Assembly: GCA_022841465.1 (NCBI GenBank)
Contig: JALHRL010000001.1
Location: 62,001 to 126,000 of the forward strand
Length of the DNA stretch: 64,000 nt
Source: Bacteroidia bacterium
GTDB lineage: Bacteria > Bacteroidota > Bacteroidia > B-17B0 > Aurantibacillaceae
Reading direction: 5' to 3'
Positions 12,567-54,957 of the stretch are shown in pieces. Numbering within the stretch: position 1 is the stretch's first letter; every line of letters starts with the position of its first letter. Under the pieces are notes generated by a model. It was not told the origin of the DNA. It ran no database searches and worked only from the letters and a program-made list of their open reading frames with translations. The position numbers and the translations under genes were made by a program.

Positions 12567-12611
12567 TGGCCTTGCGTTAAATAAATTAACTTTAAAGTGC
12601 TAATGGTATCA

Positions 12612-15350
12612 ATGAAGAGGGCCTTATTATATCTGTTTCTGTTTATTTCTTTTTTCTCACACTCTACTCATAATAGAGCCGGAGAAATTTTATATAAAAG
12701 AATAGCACCTTTTACGGCTACTGTAAATGGATTGGTTGTACCCATTTATCGTTATCAGTTTCAAATAAACACCTATACAGAAATTAATAGCCCGGGAGGA
12801 AATGCGGATAGATGTAAACTTACTTTACATTTAGGAAATGGAGATAGCATTATAATGCCGCGTGTTAATGGTTCGCCGGCAGGGCCTTCAGGCGATTGTG
12901 GCGGTACTTTTAACGGAGTAGACATAAATTTCACAACGCGCTACAACAAATATTTGGGAGAGTATCAATTTACAAATGCTGGAATTTATAAAGTATATAT
13001 GTTTGACCCCAACAGAAACGCAGGTATAATAAACATTGTAGGTGGAAATTCTGTTAACCAACCTTTTTATCTTGAATCTTTATTAATTATAAATAATTTT
13101 ACAGGCGCTAATTCAGCACCCGACTTTACCTCGCCCCCTTTAGATAATGCCTGCAGAGACATTTGTTTTTTTCATAATCCTGGGGCATTTGATGCAGATG
13201 GCGATAGTTTAAGTTATGAATTAACTTTTTCAAGAGGGATAGATCAAAGCGGCAACATTGGTGCAACTATACCCGGGTATGTTTATCCCGCAACCGGCGC
13301 AGGCGGTTCTTATAGTATTGATCCTATTTCCGGCACTTTAACTTGGTGCACTCCGCAATTAAATGGCGAATATAATTTGGCGTTTATTGTAAAAGAATGG
13401 CGAAAAAACACCGACAATAAATTTACCATGGTAGGGTATGTATTACGCGATATGCAAGTTGTGGTAGAAAGTTGCCCCGGAAACAATCCGCCTGTTTTAA
13501 TAGTGCCTAATGATACTTGTGTTGAAGCAGGAACATTGGTAACTAAAAACATTCAAGTTTCTGATCCAAATACCGGCAATTTCCTTCAACTATATGGTTA
13601 TGGCGGGCCATTTACTTCTACCAGTCCGTTTGCTTCACTAGTTCCAACTTCAGGAACTACTTCTTTTACCTCGGTGTTTAATTGGCAAACAAATTGTAAC
13701 TTAATTCGCTTACAACCTTATCAAATAACGTTAAAAGCAGAAGATCAGCAATCGCCTGTAAAATTAGTGGTATTTAAATCGTTTAATATTAAAGTTGTTC
13801 CTCCTTCGGTAAAAAATGTAACCGCAAATCCTGTGGGTACTTCTATTCATGTTTCATGGCTTCCGAGCACATGCAGTGGGCCTGCAAACCCAATTATTAA
13901 ATACGAAATTTATAGAAAAAACGATTGTACACCCGTTACCTATAACCCATGTTCTCCGGGTGCACCTCAAGGATATGGTTTTGCATTAACCGGAACAACT
14001 TCCCCTAATACTTCTACTTTTATTGATAACAATAACGGACAAGGATTAATTGTTGGACAAGATTACAGCTATATGGTTGTTGCGGTTTATTTAGACGGTT
14101 CAATTAGCTATGGATCGTCATTGGTTTGCGCTAAGTTAAAAAGAGATATTCCAATTTTACTGAATGTAGATATTGAAAGCACCGCTGTAAATACAGGAAG
14201 TGTTTTTGTGAGATGGACAAAGCCACTTACTAATTTAGGGAATTTAGATACACTTGTAATTACCGGACCGTATACTTTTAATTTAAGATATAAACCACTA
14301 ACAGCAACAACATTCAGTACAGTATATACTGTTACAAAAAATAATTTTTACGAATTAAATCAGTTAAGCGATACTACTTTTTTACATACAAACATTAATA
14401 CAGTTAACAATGCGTTAGAATATAAAGTAGAGTTTGTAACCAATACCTTTACCGTAGGAACATCTCAAAGAGCAACCTCTGTTTTTTTAACGGCAACTGG
14501 CGGCGAGCGTAAAGTAAAACTAAACTGGAGCGCAACTACACCGTGGGAAAATTACAGCTATGAAGTGTATAGAAAAGACCCTAGCCAAATTACCTTTACA
14601 GCAATAGCAACTGTAACAAATAATTTTTATACTGATTCCATTAATGTTGCTAATGGCACCACCTATTGTTATTATGTTAGAGCAGAAGGAGAATATTCTG
14701 ACAATAGTGTACCCGGCCCGCTATTTAATAAATCACAAGAAGCGTGTGCAAAAGCAGAAGATATTACTCCACCTTGTGCGCCAACATTAACTATTACCTC
14801 TGATTGTTTAACCGGGTTTGTACAAATAAATTGGAATAATTTAAGTACCGTTTGCGCCAACGATGTTGTAAAATACGTGTTATATAAAAAAGAAACCGTT
14901 GAAGAAAATTATTTTGTAATTGACACGCTTGAAGGAGCAAACTCAACCATTTTTGTTTTTGACGGCCTTGAGCAAATTGCCGCTTGTTACGCTGTTTCAG
15001 CAATTGATTCTGCTGGCAATGTTGGACCCAAAAGCGAAGACAATTGTGTTGATAATTGCCCGGAGTTTGAATTACCAAACATAATTACATTAAATGGAGA
15101 TGGTGTAAACGATTTCTTTAAGGCCAGAAAAGTGAGGCAGATAAAAGAAATTGATATGCATGTTTATGATAGATGGGGCACCCTGGTTTATAAAACAAAA
15201 GACCCTTATTTTAAATGGGATGGCACTAGCATTTTTAGTAAGCAAGTGGTTAGCGACGGAACATTATTTTACATATGTGATGTTTACGAAAGCCGCGTTA
15301 AAGGACCTAAGAAATATACATTAAAAGGCTGGGTACAAGTTGTAAATTAA
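12612..15350 (+). CDS. Secreted FN3-repeat protein with gliding-type (CHU_C) C-terminal domain
   Basis: About 912 residues, probable type IX secretion cargo. I chose the ATG at 12612 because it places a clean signal peptide (MKRALLYLFLFISFFSHS) at the N-terminus; GTG 12597 or ATG 12603 are possible. After cleavage comes THNRAGEI, common at the start of this Bacteroidota family, then cadherin-like and about four fibronectin-III-like domains (segments such as IHVSWLPST, VKLNWSAT and VQINWNN). The C-terminal gliding-type sorting domain reads NIITLNGDGVNDFF then MHVYDRWGTLVYK. Likely a large cell-surface or adhesin protein. The next gene begins 6 bases after it. Confidence 0.85.
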   Translation: MKRALLYLFLFISFFSHSTHNRAGEILYKRIAPFTATVNGLVVPIYRYQFQINTYTEINSPGGNADRCKLTLHLGNGDSIIMPRVNGSPAGPSGDCGGTFNGVDINFTTRYNKYLGEYQFTNAGIYKVYMFDPNRNAGIINIVGGNSVNQPFYLESLLIINNFTGANSAPDFTSPPLDNACRDICFFHNPGAFDADGDSLSYELTFSRGIDQSGNIGATIPGYVYPATGAGGSYSIDPISGTLTWCTPQLNGEYNLAFIVKEWRKNTDNKFTMVGYVLRDMQVVVESCPGNNPPVLIVPNDTCVEAGTLVTKNIQVSDPNTGNFLQLYGYGGPFTSTSPFASLVPTSGTTSFTSVFNWQTNCNLIRLQPYQITLKAEDQQSPVKLVVFKSFNIKVVPPSVKNVTANPVGTSIHVSWLPSTCSGPANPIIKYEIYRKNDCTPVTYNPCSPGAPQGYGFALTGTTSPNTSTFIDNNNGQGLIVGQDYSYMVVAVYLDGSISYGSSLVCAKLKRDIPILLNVDIESTAVNTGSVFVRWTKPLTNLGNLDTLVITGPYTFNLRYKPLTATTFSTVYTVTKNNFYELNQLSDTTFLHTNINTVNNALEYKVEFVTNTFTVGTSQRATSVFLTATGGERKVKLNWSATTPWENYSYEVYRKDPSQITFTAIATVTNNFYTDSINVANGTTYCYYVRAEGEYSDNSVPGPLFNKSQEACAKAEDITPPCAPTLTITSDCLTGFVQINWNNLSTVCANDVVKYVLYKKETVEENYFVIDTLEGANSTIFVFDGLEQIAACYAVSAIDSAGNVGPKSEDNCVDNCPEFELPNIITLNGDGVNDFFKARKVRQIKEIDMHVYDRWGTLVYKTKDPYFKWDGTSIFSKQVVSDGTLFYICDVYESRVKGPKKYTLKGWVQVVN

Positions 15351-27205: not shown

Positions 27206-30049
27206 TTAATGCGCTTCTAACCAATTATTACCAATACCAATTCCTACTTCAACGGGTATATCCAGTAATAGTGCAGTTTTCATGTGCGTTTCAACCAAAT
27301 GTTTTAATTCATCCATTTCAGGTTTGTATACATCAAAAACCAACTCATCGTGCACTTGCAGTAACATGCGCGATTTAAATTGTTTTTCGTTTAACTCTTT
27401 GTGAATTTTAATCATGGCCACTTTTATCATATCAGCAGCACTGCCTTGTATAGGAGCATTTATAGCGTTACGCTCTGCAAAACCCCTTACGGTTGCGTTT
27501 TTAGAATTAATATCGCGCAGCCAACGTTTACGGCCCAGTAGCGTTTCCACATAGCCTTTTTCACGTGCCAAATTTATTTGATTATCCATGTATCCTTTAA
27601 TGGCAGGATATTGTTTAAAGTAGTTATCAATTAATTCTTTTGCCTCTGTTCTAGAAATGTTTAAATTTTCTGCTAAACCAAATGCGCCTTGTCCGTATAT
27701 AATTCCAAAGTTTACGCTTTTTGCTTTATAGCGCATTTCTTTAGAAACTTCATTTTCAGGAACACCAAATACTTTGGCGGCGGTAGCAGTATGAATGTCT
27801 TTTCCTAATTTGAACGCCTCACACATGTTTGGGTCGGCACTTATATTAGCAACAATTCTTAATTCTATTTGCGAATAATCGGCACTTAATAAAGTATAAT
27901 CGTTGTTTTTTGGAATAAATGCTTTCCTAATTTGTCGGCCACGCTCTGTTCTTATAGGAATGTTTTGCAAGTTAGGGTTATCGCTGCTTAAACGCCCTGT
28001 TACTGCAACTACCTGATTAAAGGAAGTGTGAATACGTTTTGTTTTTGCATTTACCAATTCGGGCAAAGTGTCTACATAAGTATTTTTTAGTTTTACCAAT
28101 TCGCGGTAGTCTAAAATTTTTGCAACCATTGGATGGGCGTGTTGTAGTTTTAAAAGCACATCTTCGCCGGTGGCATACTGACCCGTTTTTGTTTTTTTAG
28201 CTTTATCAGAAATTTTAAGCACATCAAATAAAACTTCACCAACTTGTTTGGGCGAAGAAATATTAAATTTAAAACCCGCTAAAGAATAAATATCTTTTTC
28301 AAAAATTTCAATGTCTTTTGAAAGTTCTTCAGAAATAGTTTTTAAAACAGAAACATCTAACTGAATTCCTTCTCTTTCCATATCAGCTAAAACAGTAATT
28401 AATGGAACTTCAACTTCATTAAATAGTTTCTCGGTTTCCGTTTCTTTTAATTTTGGAGCAAAAACTTCTTTTAATTGTAAAGTAATATCTGCATCTTCTG
28501 CAGCATACTCTTTTATTTGTTCAACAGGCACATCGCGCATACTTGTTTGGTCTTTACCTTTTTTGCCAATGAGGGTTTCTATACTAACCGGCGCATAGCT
28601 TAAATAGGTTTCGGCCAGCACATCCATCCCGTGACGCATTTCGGGTTGAATTAAAAAATGAGCGACCATGGTGTCAAACATTTTATTTTTTATTTGAACG
28701 CCGTAATTCCTTAAAATATGATAGTCGTATTTTATGTTCTGCCCAATTAATGTTTTTTTCTCATCACTAAACAATGGAACAAATTTTTCTAACAATACAG
28801 TTGCTTCCAATTTGTTTTCCGGAAAGGGAACGTAGTATGCTTCGTGTGGTTTAATAGCAAATGATAAACCCACTAATTCTGCCTCTAGTGAATTTAAACC
28901 GGTTGTTTCAGAATCAAAACAAAATTCAAAAGCAGAATTAAGTTTTAATAATAATTCATTTATTTTTTCAGCAGTATCAACCAACAAATAGTTGTGTTCA
29001 ACATCAGCAATGGTTTTAAAAACAGTTGGCTCTTCAACTACTTCTTCTGTTTTATTGTTGTGCCCGTTAAAAAACTCGGCAGTACTAAATAAATCTGTTT
29101 GGCCATTTGATGATTTTGGCTGAAAGGCTTTTTCGTTTGGTAAACTTTCTGCTCCGCCAATATCTTCACCTAAAATGTTTTGTGCAATTCTTCTAAATTC
29201 AAGTTCTTTAAACAACTCACGTAATGCGGGTTTATCAACAGGCTTTAAAGCCAAATCTTTTTCATCAAATTCAATTGGGCAATCAAGAATAATGGTTGCA
29301 AGCTTTCGCGATTGAAAGGCAAGATCTTTATTGTTTTCAACTTTTTCTTTTAGTTTTCCTTTTAATTTATCGGTATTTTGATATAGATTTTCAATGGTAC
29401 CATAATCTTTTACCAATTGTATGGCGGTTTTTTCTCCTACGCCCGGAATACCCGGAATATTATCTACCTTATCTCCCATTAAGCCTAATATTTCTATTAG
29501 TTTATTTACATTATCTATTTCCCATTTTTTGCAAATTTCTTGTTGACCTAATATTTCGGCGCCATTGCCCATTCGTGCAGGTTTGTAAATAAAGGTATTG
29601 TTATCTACTAATTGTCCGTAATCTTTATCGGGCGTCATCATGTAAGTAGTGTATCCTAAGTTTTCTGCTTTACGCGCCAATGTGCCAATTACATCATCTG
29701 CTTCAAAACCCGGAAGACCAATTACCGGAATATTAAAGCCTTTTATTAAATCAATAATATACGGAATGGCAATGCGTAAATCTTCAGGCATTTCTTCGCG
29801 ATTGGCTTTGTATGTTTCAAATTCTTCGTGTCGCTGTGTGGGTGCATCGGTATCAAAAACTACGGCAATGTGGCTGGGTCTTTCTTTATTTAAAATTTCA
29901 AGTAGGGTATTGCAAAAACCAAAAATAGCAGAAGTGTTTAAGCCTTTTGAGTTTACGCGCGGATTGTTGCTAAATGCAAAATAAGCGCGATAAATTAAAG
30001 CAAAGGCATCTAGAAGAAATAATTTTTTATCGGTATCTTTTGTAATCAT
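27206..30049 (-). CDS. polA: DNA polymerase I
   Basis: A 947-residue Pol I with all three domains. The 5' nuclease domain has LLDAFALIYRAYFAF, the DTDAPTQRHE helix and DKVDNIPGIPGVGEKTA. The 3'-5' exonuclease keeps its acidic residues (DSETTGL, NIKYDYHIL and YAAEDADIT), so proofreading appears active, unlike in some lineages. The polymerase motifs are DYSQIELR, KSVNFGIIYGQGAFG and QVHDELVF. It fills gaps in replication and repair. Length is normal. It is probably transcribed alone or with the barrel gene downstream. Confidence 0.97.
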   Translation of the reverse strand: MITKDTDKKLFLLDAFALIYRAYFAFSNNPRVNSKGLNTSAIFGFCNTLLEILNKERPSHIAVVFDTDAPTQRHEEFETYKANREEMPEDLRIAIPYIIDLIKGFNIPVIGLPGFEADDVIGTLARKAENLGYTTYMMTPDKDYGQLVDNNTFIYKPARMGNGAEILGQQEICKKWEIDNVNKLIEILGLMGDKVDNIPGIPGVGEKTAIQLVKDYGTIENLYQNTDKLKGKLKEKVENNKDLAFQSRKLATIILDCPIEFDEKDLALKPVDKPALRELFKELEFRRIAQNILGEDIGGAESLPNEKAFQPKSSNGQTDLFSTAEFFNGHNNKTEEVVEEPTVFKTIADVEHNYLLVDTAEKINELLLKLNSAFEFCFDSETTGLNSLEAELVGLSFAIKPHEAYYVPFPENKLEATVLLEKFVPLFSDEKKTLIGQNIKYDYHILRNYGVQIKNKMFDTMVAHFLIQPEMRHGMDVLAETYLSYAPVSIETLIGKKGKDQTSMRDVPVEQIKEYAAEDADITLQLKEVFAPKLKETETEKLFNEVEVPLITVLADMEREGIQLDVSVLKTISEELSKDIEIFEKDIYSLAGFKFNISSPKQVGEVLFDVLKISDKAKKTKTGQYATGEDVLLKLQHAHPMVAKILDYRELVKLKNTYVDTLPELVNAKTKRIHTSFNQVVAVTGRLSSDNPNLQNIPIRTERGRQIRKAFIPKNNDYTLLSADYSQIELRIVANISADPNMCEAFKLGKDIHTATAAKVFGVPENEVSKEMRYKAKSVNFGIIYGQGAFGLAENLNISRTEAKELIDNYFKQYPAIKGYMDNQINLAREKGYVETLLGRKRWLRDINSKNATVRGFAERNAINAPIQGSAADMIKVAMIKIHKELNEKQFKSRMLLQVHDELVFDVYKPEMDELKHLVETHMKTALLLDIPVEVGIGIGNNWLEAH

Positions 30050-30214
30050 ACGGTTTGTTTGAAAGAAATTCTAAAACTTTTTTAAGCGAATTAAAGAACG
30101 CTAATTTTTAAGAATATAGAAAGGTTTGTTAGCACAGTGTGAACAATTAATAGTGCTGGAATACAGGCCATACAGAACAAAGTATCGTTTTTTAGTTAAT
30201 AACGTTATTTGATT

Positions 30215-31057
30215 ATGAAACAAGGGCTAATAATTGCTTTTATACTAAGCACAAAAGTATTTTACACGCAAACAGAGGACGATACGTTACAAAGTGTAAT
30301 AAACCCATGCGCTGTGTTTAATAAGCAAAATATAAAGTACAAAAAACCTGTTTCTTACCCTTGTTTAAGAGAAAGCGATGCCGTTTGGGAAAAGCGTGTT
30401 TGGCGCGATATTGATTTGCGCGAAAAACAAAACCATAAATATTATTATCCCTTAGAATTTAATCCTTGTGTTCAATCTTTTTTTCAAACAGTAACTTATC
30501 ATTTATTAAAGGGAAATATAGTTGCATTTAAAGACGAGCATTTTTTTATACCTATTTCAAAAAGCGAAATAAAAAAGATGCTCATAAAAAAAGATTCTAT
30601 AACACAGTTTGCGGTGAATGAGAGCGGAGATGAAGTTGAAAAGAAAGTTTTGCTTGTTGATTCTATAAGTTTAAACAGAAGAATTTTAAAACTAAGATTA
30701 AAAGAAGATTGGTTTTTTGATAAGCAAAGAAGTGAAGTGAATGTAAGAATTATTGGAATGGCGGTATTTGAATATGTTGAAGAAAAAGAGGCGTACCAAG
30801 AATTATTCTGGATTTATTTTCCGGCAAGCAGAAACATATTGGCAAATTCGTACGCGTTTAACTCACGAAACGATAATGAGTACAGGAGTTTTGACGAACT
30901 TTTTCATAAACGAGATTTTAGCAGTGTAATAATTAAAGAATCTAACGTATATGACCGTTACATTGGTGAGTATGCAAATGGAATAGATGCATTAACGGAG
31001 GCAGAAGAGATTAAAACCGATTTATTTAATTGGGAACATGATTTATGGAATTATTAA
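30215..31057 (+). CDS. gldN: Gliding motility / type IX secretion protein GldN
   Basis: A 280-residue GldN-type (PorN) protein from the ATG at 30215. A short signal peptide (MKQGLIIAFILSTKVFYT, then Gln) is followed by EKRVWRDIDLREKQN, YYPLE and the terminal signature RYIGEYANGIDALTEAEEIK then FNWEHDLW, all typical of GldN. In the type IX system GldN is periplasmic and forms ring-like assemblies with the lipoprotein GldK at the outer membrane. It normally sits in a gldKLMN operon. Here neither gldM nor gldK is adjacent: polA lies divergently upstream and a minus-strand peptidase gene downstream. Confidence 0.85.
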   Translation: MKQGLIIAFILSTKVFYTQTEDDTLQSVINPCAVFNKQNIKYKKPVSYPCLRESDAVWEKRVWRDIDLREKQNHKYYYPLEFNPCVQSFFQTVTYHLLKGNIVAFKDEHFFIPISKSEIKKMLIKKDSITQFAVNESGDEVEKKVLLVDSISLNRRILKLRLKEDWFFDKQRSEVNVRIIGMAVFEYVEEKEAYQELFWIYFPASRNILANSYAFNSRNDNEYRSFDELFHKRDFSSVIIKESNVYDRYIGEYANGIDALTEAEEIKTDLFNWEHDLWNY

Positions 31058-31063
31058 CCCCAA

Positions 31064-32065
31064 TTACTCTTCGTTATAAATAACTTCCAATAAAGTTTGA
31101 CCCACCGCTTTTAGGGTGTTTTTATCAATGTTACTTAAATCGTCGGTTGTTTTATGGTGATGTTCAAAAAACGAATTGTTGTAAACATCGTAGTGTAAAA
31201 TATCTATGGTAGGAATGTTGGCAATTTTGTTAATGAAGGCATGGTCGTCTGTCATTTCTCCGGTTTCATCTTCAATAAAATATCCATTTGCTTTATTTAA
31301 TTTTGCTGCTTTCCAAACTTTATCTACCACTTCTTTGGCATAAAAGGTAGAGAACTCTTCTTTCGGAAATTTAGCATCTTTTGCGCCAACCATGTCTAAC
31401 AAAATCCCATACTTTGCTGTATATCCGGGTTTATGAGGGTTTTTACTCCAGTATTGCGAACCCAAACACCACGTATCGGGCATGCCACCATTATCACCAT
31501 AGTCTTCTAAATCAAATAAAACAATATCTACACCTATGGCGGGTAATTTATCTTTAAAAACTCTGGCTAACTCAATTAAAACTCCGGCGCCGCTTGCCCC
31601 ATCGTTAACACCGGGGCAGGCTTGTGTTTTTAATTTCGGGTCTGTTTCTTTTTCGCAAAAAGGTCGGCTATCGTAATGGGCGCACAATAAAATTCTGTTT
31701 TTATTTTCCGGATTAAAAGAAGCAATTACATTTTTTAATAACCAGTTTTTGCCATCGAACGTTTTTATATTACCGGTTTGAATAATTACTTGCGCCCCGT
31801 ATGCTTTAAATTTTTCTTCGTAATATTTTACTGCTTTTGCATGCGCTTGGCTTCCGGGTGTACGCGGACCTAAATCTGCCTGAAATTTTATAGATGCATA
31901 AGCACTATCGCTATTAAAATCAGGAGGTACAATTCTAGGCTTTGTTTCAACAACAGTGCCGCCGGTTGATGTGTTATTATTAGTGATGTTTTCTACTGTT
32001 TTATCATCTTCACAGGAAAATAAAAAAACAAAAGAAAAAACAATGAATAAGATTTTAATTTTCAT
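31064..32065 (-). CDS. M28-fold lipoprotein, probable glutaminyl-peptide cyclotransferase
   Basis: A 333-residue lipoprotein (lipobox ending in Cys18, FLFSC) with an M28 metal-dependent fold. It shows the metal and active-site motifs AHYDSRP, VNDGASGAGV, DLEDYGD, DTWCLGSQYW, LLDMVG and TDDHAF, and ends KAVGQTLLEVIYNE. This motif set resembles the animal-type glutaminyl cyclases of Bacteroidota rather than aminopeptidases. Such enzymes convert N-terminal Gln of exported proteins to pyroglutamate in the periplasm. It starts 10 bases after the cysS stop and is likely cotranscribed with it. An aminopeptidase role is the main alternative. Confidence 0.75.
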   Translation of the reverse strand: MKIKILFIVFSFVFLFSCEDDKTVENITNNNTSTGGTVVETKPRIVPPDFNSDSAYASIKFQADLGPRTPGSQAHAKAVKYYEEKFKAYGAQVIIQTGNIKTFDGKNWLLKNVIASFNPENKNRILLCAHYDSRPFCEKETDPKLKTQACPGVNDGASGAGVLIELARVFKDKLPAIGVDIVLFDLEDYGDNGGMPDTWCLGSQYWSKNPHKPGYTAKYGILLDMVGAKDAKFPKEEFSTFYAKEVVDKVWKAAKLNKANGYFIEDETGEMTDDHAFINKIANIPTIDILHYDVYNNSFFEHHHKTTDDLSNIDKNTLKAVGQTLLEVIYNEE

Positions 32066-46819: not shown

Positions 46820-47803
46820 TTGAAACAATTAACTAAAAATAGTAGTGTGTATGCAAAAAGTAAATTTCTGCTTTTTGTTTTCTTTTTTATTGTTGTAAGT
46901 GATTCATCTTCTCAAAACTTTATGCGAAGTAACGAGTGGAAAAAGTATAAAAACGAATTTACTGTCGGGCTTGGCCCATCTAACTTTTTGGGCGATTTAG
47001 GTGGTTTAAACAGAGAAGGCACTCATTTAAGTCCTGTAGATCTTGAACTTAATCTCACTACCATGTCGGTTGCTTTAGGCTATAAATACAAATTGCAAAA
47101 GTGGCTAAATTTTTGTTTTGATTTAACGTATTTAAAAGTAAAGGGCGATGATAAATTAACAAAGGACATATACAGAAACAATCGTAATTTAAATTTCAGG
47201 TCAAGAATTTTTGAAGCAGATATAAGGTTAGAATTGCTTTACATGCACAACGCGGTTGGAAATCGATATAAAATAAAAAGAACTAAAAGGAATAGAATGA
47301 AAACAAAATCGTGGGACATTACCGGTTTTATTGGCATTGGAGGTTTTTATTTTAATCCGGAAGGAATGGATAAAAATGGAAAATGGCATAAATTAAAACC
47401 ACTGCGTACAGAAGGGCAGGGCTTACCGGGCGGACCAAAACCTTATTCTAATTATGCAATTTGTATTCCAATGGGCATAGGGTATCATTATTATATTGAT
47501 AGAAAATGGTCGGTTGGTTTAGAGTTTAACTTCCGCAAAACATTTACAGATTATATAGATGATGTTAGCACCGTTTATTATGATAAAACACAGTTAAAAA
47601 ATCTTGTTGGGCCAAAAGCCGCTGAAATGTCTGACCCCAGCAAGGGAGCTATACCCGGAGCAACAATGCCCGATGCCTCAGGCGGCTCTGCTCAGCGAGG
47701 AGATATATATAAGGATTCGTATATGTCGCTACAGGTGAAAGTAGGTTATATTTTAAAGAAAAGCAGAAAACGTAAAAAAGTGAAACTGCGAAGCAAGTTT
47801 TAA
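46820..47803 (+). CDS. Outer-membrane beta-barrel protein (DUF6089/PorG-like)
   Basis: A 327-residue protein. A hydrophobic N-terminal signal (FLLFVFFFIVVSDSSS, then Gln) precedes a segment typical of small Bacteroidota barrels: EFTVGLGPSNFLGDLGG, then VALGYKYKLQKWL and GIGYHYYIDRKWSVGLEFNFRKTFTDYIDDV. It ends in a basic tail (KKSRKRKKVKLRSKF). The start codon is TTG at 46820, or possibly GTG 46847. It is similar in outline to PorG-type barrels of the type IX system, but this is by appearance only. Confidence 0.6.
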   Translation: MKQLTKNSSVYAKSKFLLFVFFFIVVSDSSSQNFMRSNEWKKYKNEFTVGLGPSNFLGDLGGLNREGTHLSPVDLELNLTTMSVALGYKYKLQKWLNFCFDLTYLKVKGDDKLTKDIYRNNRNLNFRSRIFEADIRLELLYMHNAVGNRYKIKRTKRNRMKTKSWDITGFIGIGGFYFNPEGMDKNGKWHKLKPLRTEGQGLPGGPKPYSNYAICIPMGIGYHYYIDRKWSVGLEFNFRKTFTDYIDDVSTVYYDKTQLKNLVGPKAAEMSDPSKGAIPGATMPDASGGSAQRGDIYKDSYMSLQVKVGYILKKSRKRKKVKLRSKF

Positions 47804-48016: not shown

Positions 48017-49336
48017 ATGTGTTTAAAAAAAATAATTGCAATTTTAATTTTGTTTTTTCATGGTAGTTCTTTTTTATTTCCGCAGGCACAATTTGTAAAT
48101 AGTGTTTATTCTCAAGATTTTGGCACAGCAAATATTGCAACATGGACTAATAATTCAACTTTTTTAGGATGGTATTTAGATAATAATAATTTTCAGGGAA
48201 CAATAAATATTACTGCAGCTGCTCCCAGTAATAATGGTGGGCAGTATATGTATACTTGCAGTGGTGGAACTGACATGAAATTAGGGACACGTCCTTCTAA
48301 TGGTTCTGAATCGGGTAGTGGGCCTTGTGCAAATTTAGCAACAAGTACTTGTGGTCATGGTATAGGCTTAAGGTTGGTAAATACTTTTGGTAATACAATA
48401 GTTGCCCTAACTGTTCAATACGATTGGTATCAGTTTTCGTTAGCGGAAAACGGAGGTAACGCGAACGGTATGTTTTTTAGTTATAAGCAAGGAGCTACTG
48501 TAACAAGCGTAACTGGCACTGGATGGACCAATGTAGCATCGCTTGACTTTTTGGCACCACAAAGCTCTGCTGTAGGAGGAGGGAATCAATTAAATGGCTA
48601 TCCTTGTACACAAACAGGCACCAAAGTCGATTGTTTTCTTGTAACAGTACCTCACGGGGAGGAAGTAATGTTACGCTGGTGGGATCCAAATAATAGTAAC
48701 AACGACCCACATTTAGGGATTGATAATGTTATTGTAACGGCTTATGCAGATAATATTTGTAACGTAGTTTTATTTAATAACGATTATAAATTTAAAGCCA
48801 TAAAAAACAATAGTAGTTATCATTTCAATTGGAAAAACCTTCCTCAACAAAATATTATGAAGTATTTTATTGAACATTCTTCTGATGGAAAAATCTTTAG
48901 GCCTATAGACAGCCTTTTTTTCTCTCCTGATAGCAATGAGGAATTGTATATCGACAGGCTTGTTGAGAAAAAGTTTGATGAAAAAGTAAGTTTATTTAGA
49001 TTAAAGGCAGTAAATGAGTTTCAAGAAATATCTTATAGCAAAATGGTTGTGGTAAACAATTATAGCATAAATGAGACGGTTAAAGACGCTTTTTATTTTT
49101 ACAAATACGCCCAAATGGAGAATGGCGCCGTTTATTTTAAATTAAACACTCCAAGGCAAATTAACGTTAGTATTTTGGATTTATCCGGGATGTCTGTTTT
49201 TAGTCAAACTAATAATTTGCTGAAGGAAGGGGAGTATCAAATGACAATTCCAAAACTTAATAAGGGAGTTTATATACTTGCCGTTAGCGGTCTTGCCGAT
49301 AAAACCCAATATAAAAAAATTATCATAAGCGAATAG
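48017..49336 (+). CDS. Secreted protein with type IX C-terminal sorting domain
   Basis: A 439-residue protein with an N-terminal signal (MCLKKIIAILILFFHGSSFLFP, then Gln) and a Gly/Asn-rich N-terminal half that looks like a beta-sandwich domain (VRW-like MLRWWDPNNSNNDPHLGIDNVIVTA). A short region of FN3 type precedes a C-terminal Por-type sorting domain (INVSILDLSGMSVFSQ, KGVYILAVSG, KKIIISE). The sorting domain is the signal read by the type IX machinery. Function of the body is not recognised. Confidence 0.75.
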   Translation: MCLKKIIAILILFFHGSSFLFPQAQFVNSVYSQDFGTANIATWTNNSTFLGWYLDNNNFQGTINITAAAPSNNGGQYMYTCSGGTDMKLGTRPSNGSESGSGPCANLATSTCGHGIGLRLVNTFGNTIVALTVQYDWYQFSLAENGGNANGMFFSYKQGATVTSVTGTGWTNVASLDFLAPQSSAVGGGNQLNGYPCTQTGTKVDCFLVTVPHGEEVMLRWWDPNNSNNDPHLGIDNVIVTAYADNICNVVLFNNDYKFKAIKNNSSYHFNWKNLPQQNIMKYFIEHSSDGKIFRPIDSLFFSPDSNEELYIDRLVEKKFDEKVSLFRLKAVNEFQEISYSKMVVVNNYSINETVKDAFYFYKYAQMENGAVYFKLNTPRQINVSILDLSGMSVFSQTNNLLKEGEYQMTIPKLNKGVYILAVSGLADKTQYKKIIISE

Positions 49337-53196: not shown

Positions 53197-54957
53197 TTAT
53201 TCCTTTATAAAGGTCTTAACCACAATGTGCCCGAAAGTAAAAGTAAATTTAATTTGATATAAGCCAGATTTAAGATCTTTCACATCAATTTTATCTGATT
53301 TATCAATAGACTGTTTTCTCCCTAATAAATCAATAATCTCAATTGAACTAATATCGTTATAATCCTCTTCATGCATATCAATAATTAAGAATTCTTTAGT
53401 TGGATTGGGGAACAACGAGATTGCATTGTTATCTACAAGGGAAAAATGTTCGATTTGATTTTTTTCGGAATTGTATTTTATTAAGCTCTCTGCATAGTTA
53501 AGGTCAGTTTTTATTAAACTATCAATTCGACGGTCTTCTATAACCCTTAACTCCTCTTCACTTATTTCGGCGTACGAGGGATATGAATTGGTTTCAGAAT
53601 TTTTTTGAGCAAGGGGGACACCATTACAGTTGATAATTTCAGCTCGAAGATAAGCTCCTTCATTAATAATAACATCATCTAGAAAAGTAATTTCATCAAT
53701 TGCAAGAAATTGAAAGTTTTCTTTTGTTGTCATAACACCAGGTGCAGGCCATGAATCAAATGGTGAAGAACCTCCGCCTACTGTAATTTTGTTACCACTC
53801 AAAAAGTTGGTATTACCAGTGATGTTTTTAAAATCAGTTTGCGTATATACGTTTTGTGCTGCTGTACAATTTATTGGTTGCCAAATAACGAATTGATCTA
53901 CTTCTATCCGTTTATTGATGTCGGAATAATTATTCCATGAATTGACTAGCATATCTCTTTGAACTTGTTTGAAAATTGAACATGAAATGAAAACTTCCAT
54001 TGGTGTATTATCTTCAATAAAGCTAAGGTCTTTATGTACTTTATTATATAATATACAATTGCCGTTAATAGGATTTGTTATATTACAACCTGTTAAATTA
54101 CTCATTGAGGTACACCAGTAAGATTTGTTTGGAACACCATTCCCAGCTTTGTTACATATATCATCTATCTGAAAAATACCGTCATAAAATTTAGTTGCAT
54201 AACCTACAGGGATGTTGTCTAAAAAGATTTCATATTTATAGTTAGTCCAGGTTAATTGATATTTATGGGACTGATTAAAGAAATTTGTGTTAACGGGGAA
54301 CTTTCTTCCGCGCGAACATCTATCTGAATCAGTAACGTCTTTATGTGCAGTCATTCGCATACTGTGATACACATCACAACCGAATTGTGTAACATTACCA
54401 TCGTAGAACTCAAAAATATCGATTTCAGCTTTCCCTTCTCTAAGCCAATATGCAGGCCATAAAAGGTTATTTTCAGGAAGTTTCATATTACAAGTGAATA
54501 TCCCTCCTTTTGTATTAAATAATGTCCTTAAGTCAGCAAATGTAAAAGGATAACTTTTGGGCCCGGAAGAAGGGAAAGGATATTTATTGGAATTAAGTTC
54601 TTTTTTAAGGGTTAAATAACATTTACCATTAGAGACGGACAAATTATTATAATAAGCCTCTAAATCAGGACCAGACCAAATGTTAAAATCACCATCCATT
54701 CCATAATCATCATCAAGAGTGTAACTCATGTTAAAACCGAAATTATTTGGAAGATCTTCTTTATAATCAAAGTTTTCAATAAGCACTGGGTATAGGACAG
54801 AAGCATAAGTACAACTTGCGGGTCTATTGTCAACTACTTTAACCTTATCTTCACATTTATTTGGTTTGATTCTTGTGAACTGGTAGGGAGGAACTATCTG
54901 TGAAAAGACCATGTTTGTAACCAAAAGGGCGAAAACAATGAATTTATTAATCCTCAT
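53197..54957 (-). CDS. Secreted GH16-type glycoside hydrolase with type IX sorting domain
   Basis: A 586-residue protein: signal peptide (MRINKFIVFALLVTNMVFS, then Gln), a GH16-like beta-sandwich at about 60-350 and a C-terminal Por-type sorting domain (SLFPNPTKEFLIIDM, IEIIDLLGRKQSI, LKSGLYQIKF, KTFIKE). The GH16 active-site motif is EIDIFE with Glu178, Asp180 and Glu183, and LLWPAYWLREG precedes it, as is usual for the family. It probably cleaves a beta-1,3/1,4-linked glycan; the substrate cannot be told. Eight or more cysteines suggest disulfides. It follows the tail-fibre-like gene by 24 bases and is likely cotranscribed. Confidence 0.85.
   Translation of the reverse strand: MRINKFIVFALLVTNMVFSQIVPPYQFTRIKPNKCEDKVKVVDNRPASCTYASVLYPVLIENFDYKEDLPNNFGFNMSYTLDDDYGMDGDFNIWSGPDLEAYYNNLSVSNGKCYLTLKKELNSNKYPFPSSGPKSYPFTFADLRTLFNTKGGIFTCNMKLPENNLLWPAYWLREGKAEIDIFEFYDGNVTQFGCDVYHSMRMTAHKDVTDSDRCSRGRKFPVNTNFFNQSHKYQLTWTNYKYEIFLDNIPVGYATKFYDGIFQIDDICNKAGNGVPNKSYWCTSMSNLTGCNITNPINGNCILYNKVHKDLSFIEDNTPMEVFISCSIFKQVQRDMLVNSWNNYSDINKRIEVDQFVIWQPINCTAAQNVYTQTDFKNITGNTNFLSGNKITVGGGSSPFDSWPAPGVMTTKENFQFLAIDEITFLDDVIINEGAYLRAEIINCNGVPLAQKNSETNSYPSYAEISEEELRVIEDRRIDSLIKTDLNYAESLIKYNSEKNQIEHFSLVDNNAISLFPNPTKEFLIIDMHEEDYNDISSIEIIDLLGRKQSIDKSDKIDVKDLKSGLYQIKFTFTFGHIVVKTFIKE

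Follow-up and report, generated by a model that had tools for sequence, protein, structure and literature searches.

The 64-kb stretch of DNA analysed here (the window; contig 1, 62001-126000, of a 3.77-Mb genome in 125 contigs with a completeness of 100) carries a second, solitary gldN, designated gldN2. On the evidence of sequence comparison, gldN2 is an intact, anciently duplicated and vertically inherited GldN that coexists with a full gldKLMN operon in the same genome. On balance we favour, at slightly better than even chances, the reading that its product serves as a specialised alternative subunit of the GldK/GldN ring or track, sharing GldK, GldL and GldM with the canonical protein, with its GldK-facing arm held by a disulfide.

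A solitary gldN and the operon copy of the same genome

The features of the window are collected in Table 1. gldN2 is an intact, ATG-started open reading frame of 280 codons, and its product scores 176.6 bits against the GldN/PorN equivalog model (cut-off, 85.9) and 195.1 bits against the Pfam GldN family (cut-off, 23); judged by these two scores, its membership in the GldN family is beyond doubt. The N-terminus is hydrophobic, with a helix at residues 3-17 in the AF2 model, and was read by eye as a likely signal peptide. Since polA and the M28 peptidase gene are both encoded on the minus strand, gldN2 is alone on its own strand. The initial annotation, which had described a complete gldN standing alone between polA and a minus-strand peptidase gene, is thus confirmed by the reading frame, by TIGR03523 and PF19841, and by the PF04389 match of the neighbour. 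Its mention of PorT at 52.0 kb and of type IX cargo in the window also holds: PorT was recognised by NF052311 (181.6 bits; cut-off, 125), and three T9SS C-termini were identified, one by TIGR04131 and two by TIGR04183.

Table 1. Features of the window, in window coordinates.
Feature	Position	Strand	Basis
gldN2, second, solo GldN/PorN, 280 aa	30215..31057	+	TIGR03523, PF19841, AF2 model against PorN chains
Putative Sec signal peptide of gldN2, residues about 1-19	30215..30271	+	By eye
Cys32 codon, N-terminal arm, NPC motif	30308..30310	+	Asp at this position in 19 of 19 canonical GldNs
Cys50 codon, third Cys, private to the window copy	30362..30364	+	Column comparison among aligned rows
Cys85 codon, loop directly before first core helix (89-99)	30467..30469	+	Alignment; helix from AF2 model
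polA, divergent neighbour	27206..30049	-	ORF list, named by eye
M28 peptidase, convergent neighbour, 6-bp gap to gldN2	31064..32065	-	PF04389, 115 bits
T9SS cargo C-terminus	12597..15350		TIGR04131
T9SS cargo C-terminus	48017..49336		TIGR04183
T9SS cargo C-terminus	53197..54957		TIGR04183
PorG-like protein	46820..47803	+	NF052316, 78.5 bits, under the cut-off of 130

No gldK, gldL or gldM was found in the ORF list of the window when read by eye, and genome searches gave no further GldN or GldK match within its 64 kb. A Flavobacterium-type promoter consensus is absent upstream of gldN2 from both strands of positions 29901-30260. The PorG-like protein of the window has a C-terminal tail without Cys; the GldK of this genome retains its KGCF motif. 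Passages of PMC12635249 report that the cysteines of the PorG C-terminal tail are important and that PorG bonds GldK.

The suggestion that gldN2 might be the only gldN, moved from its operon, is refuted. A search of the whole genome for GldN recovered a second copy on contig 9, located directly after gldM and 49% identical to gldN2, within an intact row porP-gldK-gldL-gldM-gldN (locus L003). Each gene of this row is over its family cut-off: porP (TIGR03519, 216.8 bits), gldK (TIGR03525, 546.6 bits), gldL (TIGR03513, 215.1 bits), gldM (TIGR03517, 307.9 bits) and gldN (TIGR03523, 183.3 bits). The core operon is therefore normal and the window copy additional, which rules out gldN2 as a relocated core gene. 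GldJ is probably also present in this genome: a 558-codon frame on contig 3 gave a match of 373.7 bits together with pieces of 61.9 and 20.9 bits, no single piece reaching the cut-off of 458.2 bits.

Distribution, descent and constraint of class B

GldN matches were found in 39 of the 40 genomes of the genus and in 84 of the 87 genomes of the family. For phylogenetic comparison of the window copy with the canonical ones, as had been suggested, a tree of 119 GldN rows was used, limited to fetched rows from 74 of the 87 family genomes that reached 180 aa and scored above 50 bits, with one row per identical C-terminal 150 residues. In this tree gldN2 falls within a clade of 17 rows (SH-aLRT 100), which we named class B. 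Class B is present in 17 of the 87 family genomes (by genus code, 3 of 40 in g1, 6 of 8 in g7, 7 of 20 in g10 and the single genome of g5), and all 17 also possess a gldM-adjacent canonical gldN. The search of the order, which comprises these same 87 genomes, yielded 16 Cys-type copies at 117.2 bits or more, all other listed matches being at 111.7 bits or less. Class B is dispensable, because it was not seen in 70 of the 87 family genomes, incomplete ones included.

Both copies are represented in the tree for 16 genomes, and for these class B and canonical gldN gave the same shape in 1618 of 1820 quartets; in 200 label shuffles the agreement averaged 34% and never exceeded 61%. The quartets were taken from the quick 119-row tree, and weak-branch shapes were counted too. 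From this agreement, class B was most likely inherited vertically beside the operon copy and lost often. One GldK over the cut-off was found in 16 of the 17 class-B genomes, none in G081 and two in no genome. A second, parallel gldKLM serving gldN2 was rejected on this basis, GldK having been searched genome-wide and GldL and GldM viewed in the fetched loci only. The number of PorP/SprF-family proteins shows no clear link to class B (in g10, means of 16.6 in 7 carriers and 13.9 in 13 non-carriers, with incomplete genomes among them).

The location of class B differs from genus to genus. The g1 copies lie inside a polA-M28-cysS-MORN block. Part of the g10 copies adjoin a purL-like gene, with a gene resembling der in the vicinity at two loci (both named by eye), and four g7 loci place class B next to the same 1,156-1,159-aa protein. 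In the basal carrier, G049, class B is situated about 1.9 kb beyond the genome's own gldKLMN operon, which suggests that the duplicate gldN originated next to the operon; with this exception, no gld core gene was found adjoining class B. Four genomes of the genus (G006, G011, G028 and G012) exhibit the empty site, cysS-M28-c30-polA without gldN2, and tblastn detected no trace of gldN2 beyond chance in these loci.

Several other arrangements were encountered in the fetched loci. In the relative L161 (2554-16758), the neighbours of the canonical gldKLMN operon are trhO, epimerase, MORN, cysS and polA genes (trhO and epimerase named by eye); in the window, gldN2 is located within this same block. 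A third class of solo GldN-like genes, much more divergent, is represented by 16 rows in one clade, at about 105-144 Pfam bits (L061-L070, L072-L074, L103, L106 and L107), and in 12 loci it adjoins an 807-aa protein, pheT-like in appearance. Two loci, L071 (1296-3130) and L113 (4449-6333), have a gene with weak GldK similarity (35 and 27 bits, respectively) followed immediately by a highly divergent GldN-like one, a pair that possibly constitutes a separate small ring system.

Pairwise dN/dS (NG86) for five class-B pairs was 0.056, 0.052, 0.123, 0.051 and 0.076, compared to 0.051, 0.039, 0.011, 0.064 and 0.107 for the canonical copies of the same genome pairs; these values are rough, since dS exceeds 1 in several pairs, and in two further class-B pairs, the window's own included, dS was saturated. 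On these values class B is clearly under purifying selection, and its evolutionary constraint is evident. It nevertheless evolves faster than the canonical copies, with a median path ratio of 1.37 over 120 pairs.

The cysteine pair within and beyond the family

When 17 class-B sequences of the family were aligned with 19 canonical ones, two columns proved to be Cys in 16 of the former and in none of the latter, the basal G049 being the sole class-B member to lack both. In the window copy, C32 and C85 each lie within an NPC motif; the C85 column holds Gly (7) or Ser (12) in the canonical sequences. Four residues that are invariant in the 19 canonical rows (D33, Y97, H213 and E214) are replaced across class B, and K163, E164, D165 and W166 are among the 27 columns invariant in 55 sequences. 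An unrelated Cys pair occurs in 12 of the 19 canonical copies, belonging to some of the genera, and in no class-B copy. The canonical GldN of the window's genome (L003, 9917-10762) has such a pair at residues 127 and 149; this pair is found in the canonical GldN of the sampled g1, g5, g7 and g8 genomes and is missing in the 7 sampled from g10.

In all, 263 distinct GldNs were collected, 230 of which were anchored and scored, with 33 lacking an anchor. Among the 165 gldM-adjacent GldNs, 157 have neither Cys, one has both and 7 are without anchor, such that 157 of the 158 anchored ones lack both residues; the exception is the second gldM-gldN of G403. The 95 extra or solo GldNs comprise 21 with both Cys, 41 with neither, 7 with the first site only and 26 without anchor, and two of the three GldNs whose upstream region was not seen have both Cys and one has neither. 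Because the rows are related, these tallies are counts and not independent tests. Within the narrow position limits used, no copy among the 230 anchored GldNs has the second Cys without the first, and in several of the first-site-only cases the Cys lies, by eye, in or beside the signal peptide. A few copies are borderline: L308 and L043, which belong to the 23 copies with both Cys outside the gldM-adjacent set, fit the motif loosely; L210 has no anchor and was therefore unscored, the pair being present by eye; and L322, the canonical copy of G129, has one Cys just past the narrow second-site limit.

The class search covered 395 genomes, about 109 of which show at least two GldN matches by hand count, and in many families the extra gldN copies are without the Cys pair. 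In a scan of 80 loci, L199 and L210 were found to carry the pair in tandem second copies outside class B, the preceding gldN being without it. The class search and 40 further regions placed a Cys-pair copy in tandem after the canonical one in four f21 genomes (G429, G274, G410 and G106), a solo one on the same contig as the operon in G129 (f44), and one in the second gldM-gldN of G403 (f5), where the ORF is split; the second copy of G325 (f21) lacks both Cys. The phylum search gave matches in 92 of 395 genomes, and the 29 further loci from this search, beyond that of the window, hold no GldN with the pair. One gldM is followed by a run of three or four gldN genes in L308, L310 and L295, and L320 has a second gldM-gldN with the gldN ORF split in two.

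In a tree of 126 rows, class B falls into one group with the canonical GldNs of f1, its own family (36 rows, 100), the second copies of f21 form a separate clade (7 rows, 100) and the solo copy of G129 groups with its own canonical copy (98). In a more careful tree of 48 rows, the G129 solo copy is located instead beside the second copy of G104, and both join the f21 second copies with a weaker support of 85/79; the starred branches of this tree require at least three changes of Cys state. A single clade of all 18 Cys-type copies was rejected by the AU test (dlnL 218.5, p-AU 6.7e-10, tree without the split G403 copy), a p-value that flatters because the group was defined only once the first tree was known. 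Each of the three changes may represent a gain or a loss; the simplest account is that the pair arose repeatedly in extra copies, and the extra GldN copies of several lineages thus seem to have acquired the Cys pair more than once. One gain followed by several losses is formally conceivable.

Predicted structure and possible roles of GldN2

The AF2 model of the gldN2 product, derived from 55 sequences, has a pLDDT of 77.6 and a pTM of 0.67; an earlier model from 6 sequences (pLDDT 64.7) was set aside. In VIA-align 2 comparisons the model exhibits the PorN fold, with Z 16.2-19.8 and rmsd 3.5-4.2 over 178-183 residues of the PorN chains (P. gingivalis PorN 9mzu_B, Z 19.8 with rmsd 4.0 over 183 residues; 7pvh_A, Z 19.2; 9ots_D, Z 17.6; 9myj_A, Z 16.2). 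Foldseek placed the same PorN entries first, the best with an E of 8.9e-14 (whole-model rmsd 12.1 for that row), and superposing the whole model on PorN gave a loose fit, with rmsd 6.9-12.2 and TMq 0.51-0.55. The alignment to 9mzu_B sets model residues 42-243 on PorN residues 53-256. Because model residue 42 pairs with PorN 53, C32 is extrapolated to lie near PorN residue 43, just before Thr47, which is given as the first resolved residue in the ring (passages of PMC12635249). According to the same passages, the N-terminus of PorN becomes ordered upon assembly of the PorKN ring and packs on PorK, and the tip of PorM was modelled, at low confidence, in the cleft separating adjacent PorN copies. 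The pLDDT of our model averages 55 for residues 31-40 and stays under 50 from residue 16 to residue 30, which leaves the model uninformative on the putative C32-C85 bond.

gldN2 thus resembles GldN/PorN in its equivalog score, fold and length, and probably in carrying a signal peptide, and differs in its position away from gldM, in the replacement of the N-arm Asp by Cys, in the second Cys before the first core helix and in the loss of several residues invariant in the canonical copies of the family. Its nearest known analogue is GldO of Flavobacterium johnsoniae, likewise a second GldN in a genome that keeps gldKLMN, and described in passages of PMC9127263 and PMC10202324 as a partially redundant GldN paralogue next to gldN. 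Two-hybrid tests reported contacts of GldM with GldK, GldN and GldO (passages of PMC8986121), which shows that an additional GldN can make contact with the machine in Flavobacterium. Unlike GldO, which adjoins gldN, gldN2 is on contig 1 and the operon on contig 9. Moreover, the tandem copies of the apparently Flavobacterium-like f54 (two genomes), which are likely GldO counterparts, have neither Cys and cluster with the canonical GldNs of their own; f54 forms its own clade (6 rows, 100) and class B falls in f1, a topology without shared descent of the two. Cysteine chemistry within the same ring or track is also known from the disulfides of GldK Cys343 (passages of PMC12635249), but the GldK bond joins the track to SprF/PorG, whereas the gldN2 pair lies in GldN and is probably internal.

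In the reading we favour, GldN2 would be exported to the periplasm, would assemble on rows of operon-encoded GldK in place of some GldN copies and would be pushed by the shared GldLM motors. A disulfide between C32 and C85 would hold the N-terminal arm in place, the region which in PorN gains order against PorK during assembly. Because the gene stands apart from the operon, the share of GldN2 in the ring could be set separately, and the outcome would be rings or tracks that differ in stability or choice of partner. Our confidence falls from the periplasmic location, through the C32-C85 disulfide and assembly on the operon GldK, to the altered behaviour of ring or track. To the extent that sequence can tell, the initial proposal of a specialised second copy is supported, the copy being old, conserved, under purifying selection and marked by a diagnostic Cys pair. 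A broader version, which we consider quite unlikely, would make Cys-type GldN a repeatedly evolved disulfide clamp in Bacteroidia, the covalently locked subunit capping or stiffening the polymer, or setting closed ring versus open filament and thereby secretion versus gliding.

GldN2 could also be a GldO-like backup, an interchangeable spare for dosage or other conditions whose cysteines aid stability only. The partial redundancy of GldO and GldN in Flavobacterium (passages of PMC9127263) and the retained core, K163 to W166 included, agree with such a role, but an interchangeable spare accords poorly with the replacement of the four canonical-invariant residues across class B, with its roughly 1.4 times faster evolution and with the recurrence of the same two Cys in the extra copies of other families, and we regard it as rather unlikely. 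The cysteines might instead bond between molecules, either in a covalent GldN2-GldN2 chain round the ring or to an outer-membrane partner. GldK does form disulfides with the outer-membrane proteins SprF and PorG (passages of PMC12635249), yet the two Cys vary together, with no second-only copy within the narrow position limits and both absent in G325 and G049, as expected of a bonded pair; this co-variation is also compatible with a bond between neighbouring subunits. Intermolecular bonding is, in our view, unlikely.

A departure of GldN2 from the T9SS to serve another periplasmic complex would suit a solo gene whose neighbourhood changes by genus, with a gld core gene adjoining in G049 only, and which has lost the canonical His-Glu at 213-214. 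It seems very improbable in view of the PorN fold, of the canonical gldN kept in every one of the 17 carriers and of a score still over the GldN equivalog cut-off, as in L117 and L083 (186.2 and 192 bits). A degenerate paralogue drifting to loss is scarcely credible. Class B was not found in most relatives, and the end branch of gldN2 in the 119-row tree measures 0.60 versus 0.15 for its own canonical copy, but this reading is contradicted by the intact frame, by dN/dS of 0.05-0.12 and by the Cys pair retained in 16 of 17 copies. Of the combination envisaged in the initial annotation, a normal gldKLMN elsewhere together with a degenerate window copy, the former part therefore stood and the latter did not.

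No account of a Cys-type second GldN was found in the full-text literature, subscription papers being mostly outside the search. Among the matches listed, no title concerned GldN paralogues or a second non-tandem GldN, and PMC12635249 was the only one, by abstract, on disulfides in the gliding/T9SS machine; its passages on GldN treat the protein as a track component and are silent on GldN cysteines. The same source describes the GldK/GldN ring of P. gingivalis, solved at high resolution in 2025, the gliding track being still a model. The same GldK/GldN subunits make both ring and track, and gldN2 may offer a concrete handle on ring composition, one that rests on carriers with one GldK and on a Cys pair apparently gained in the GldK-facing arm. 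The annotation "gldN" in genomes also conceals at least two kinds of subunit.
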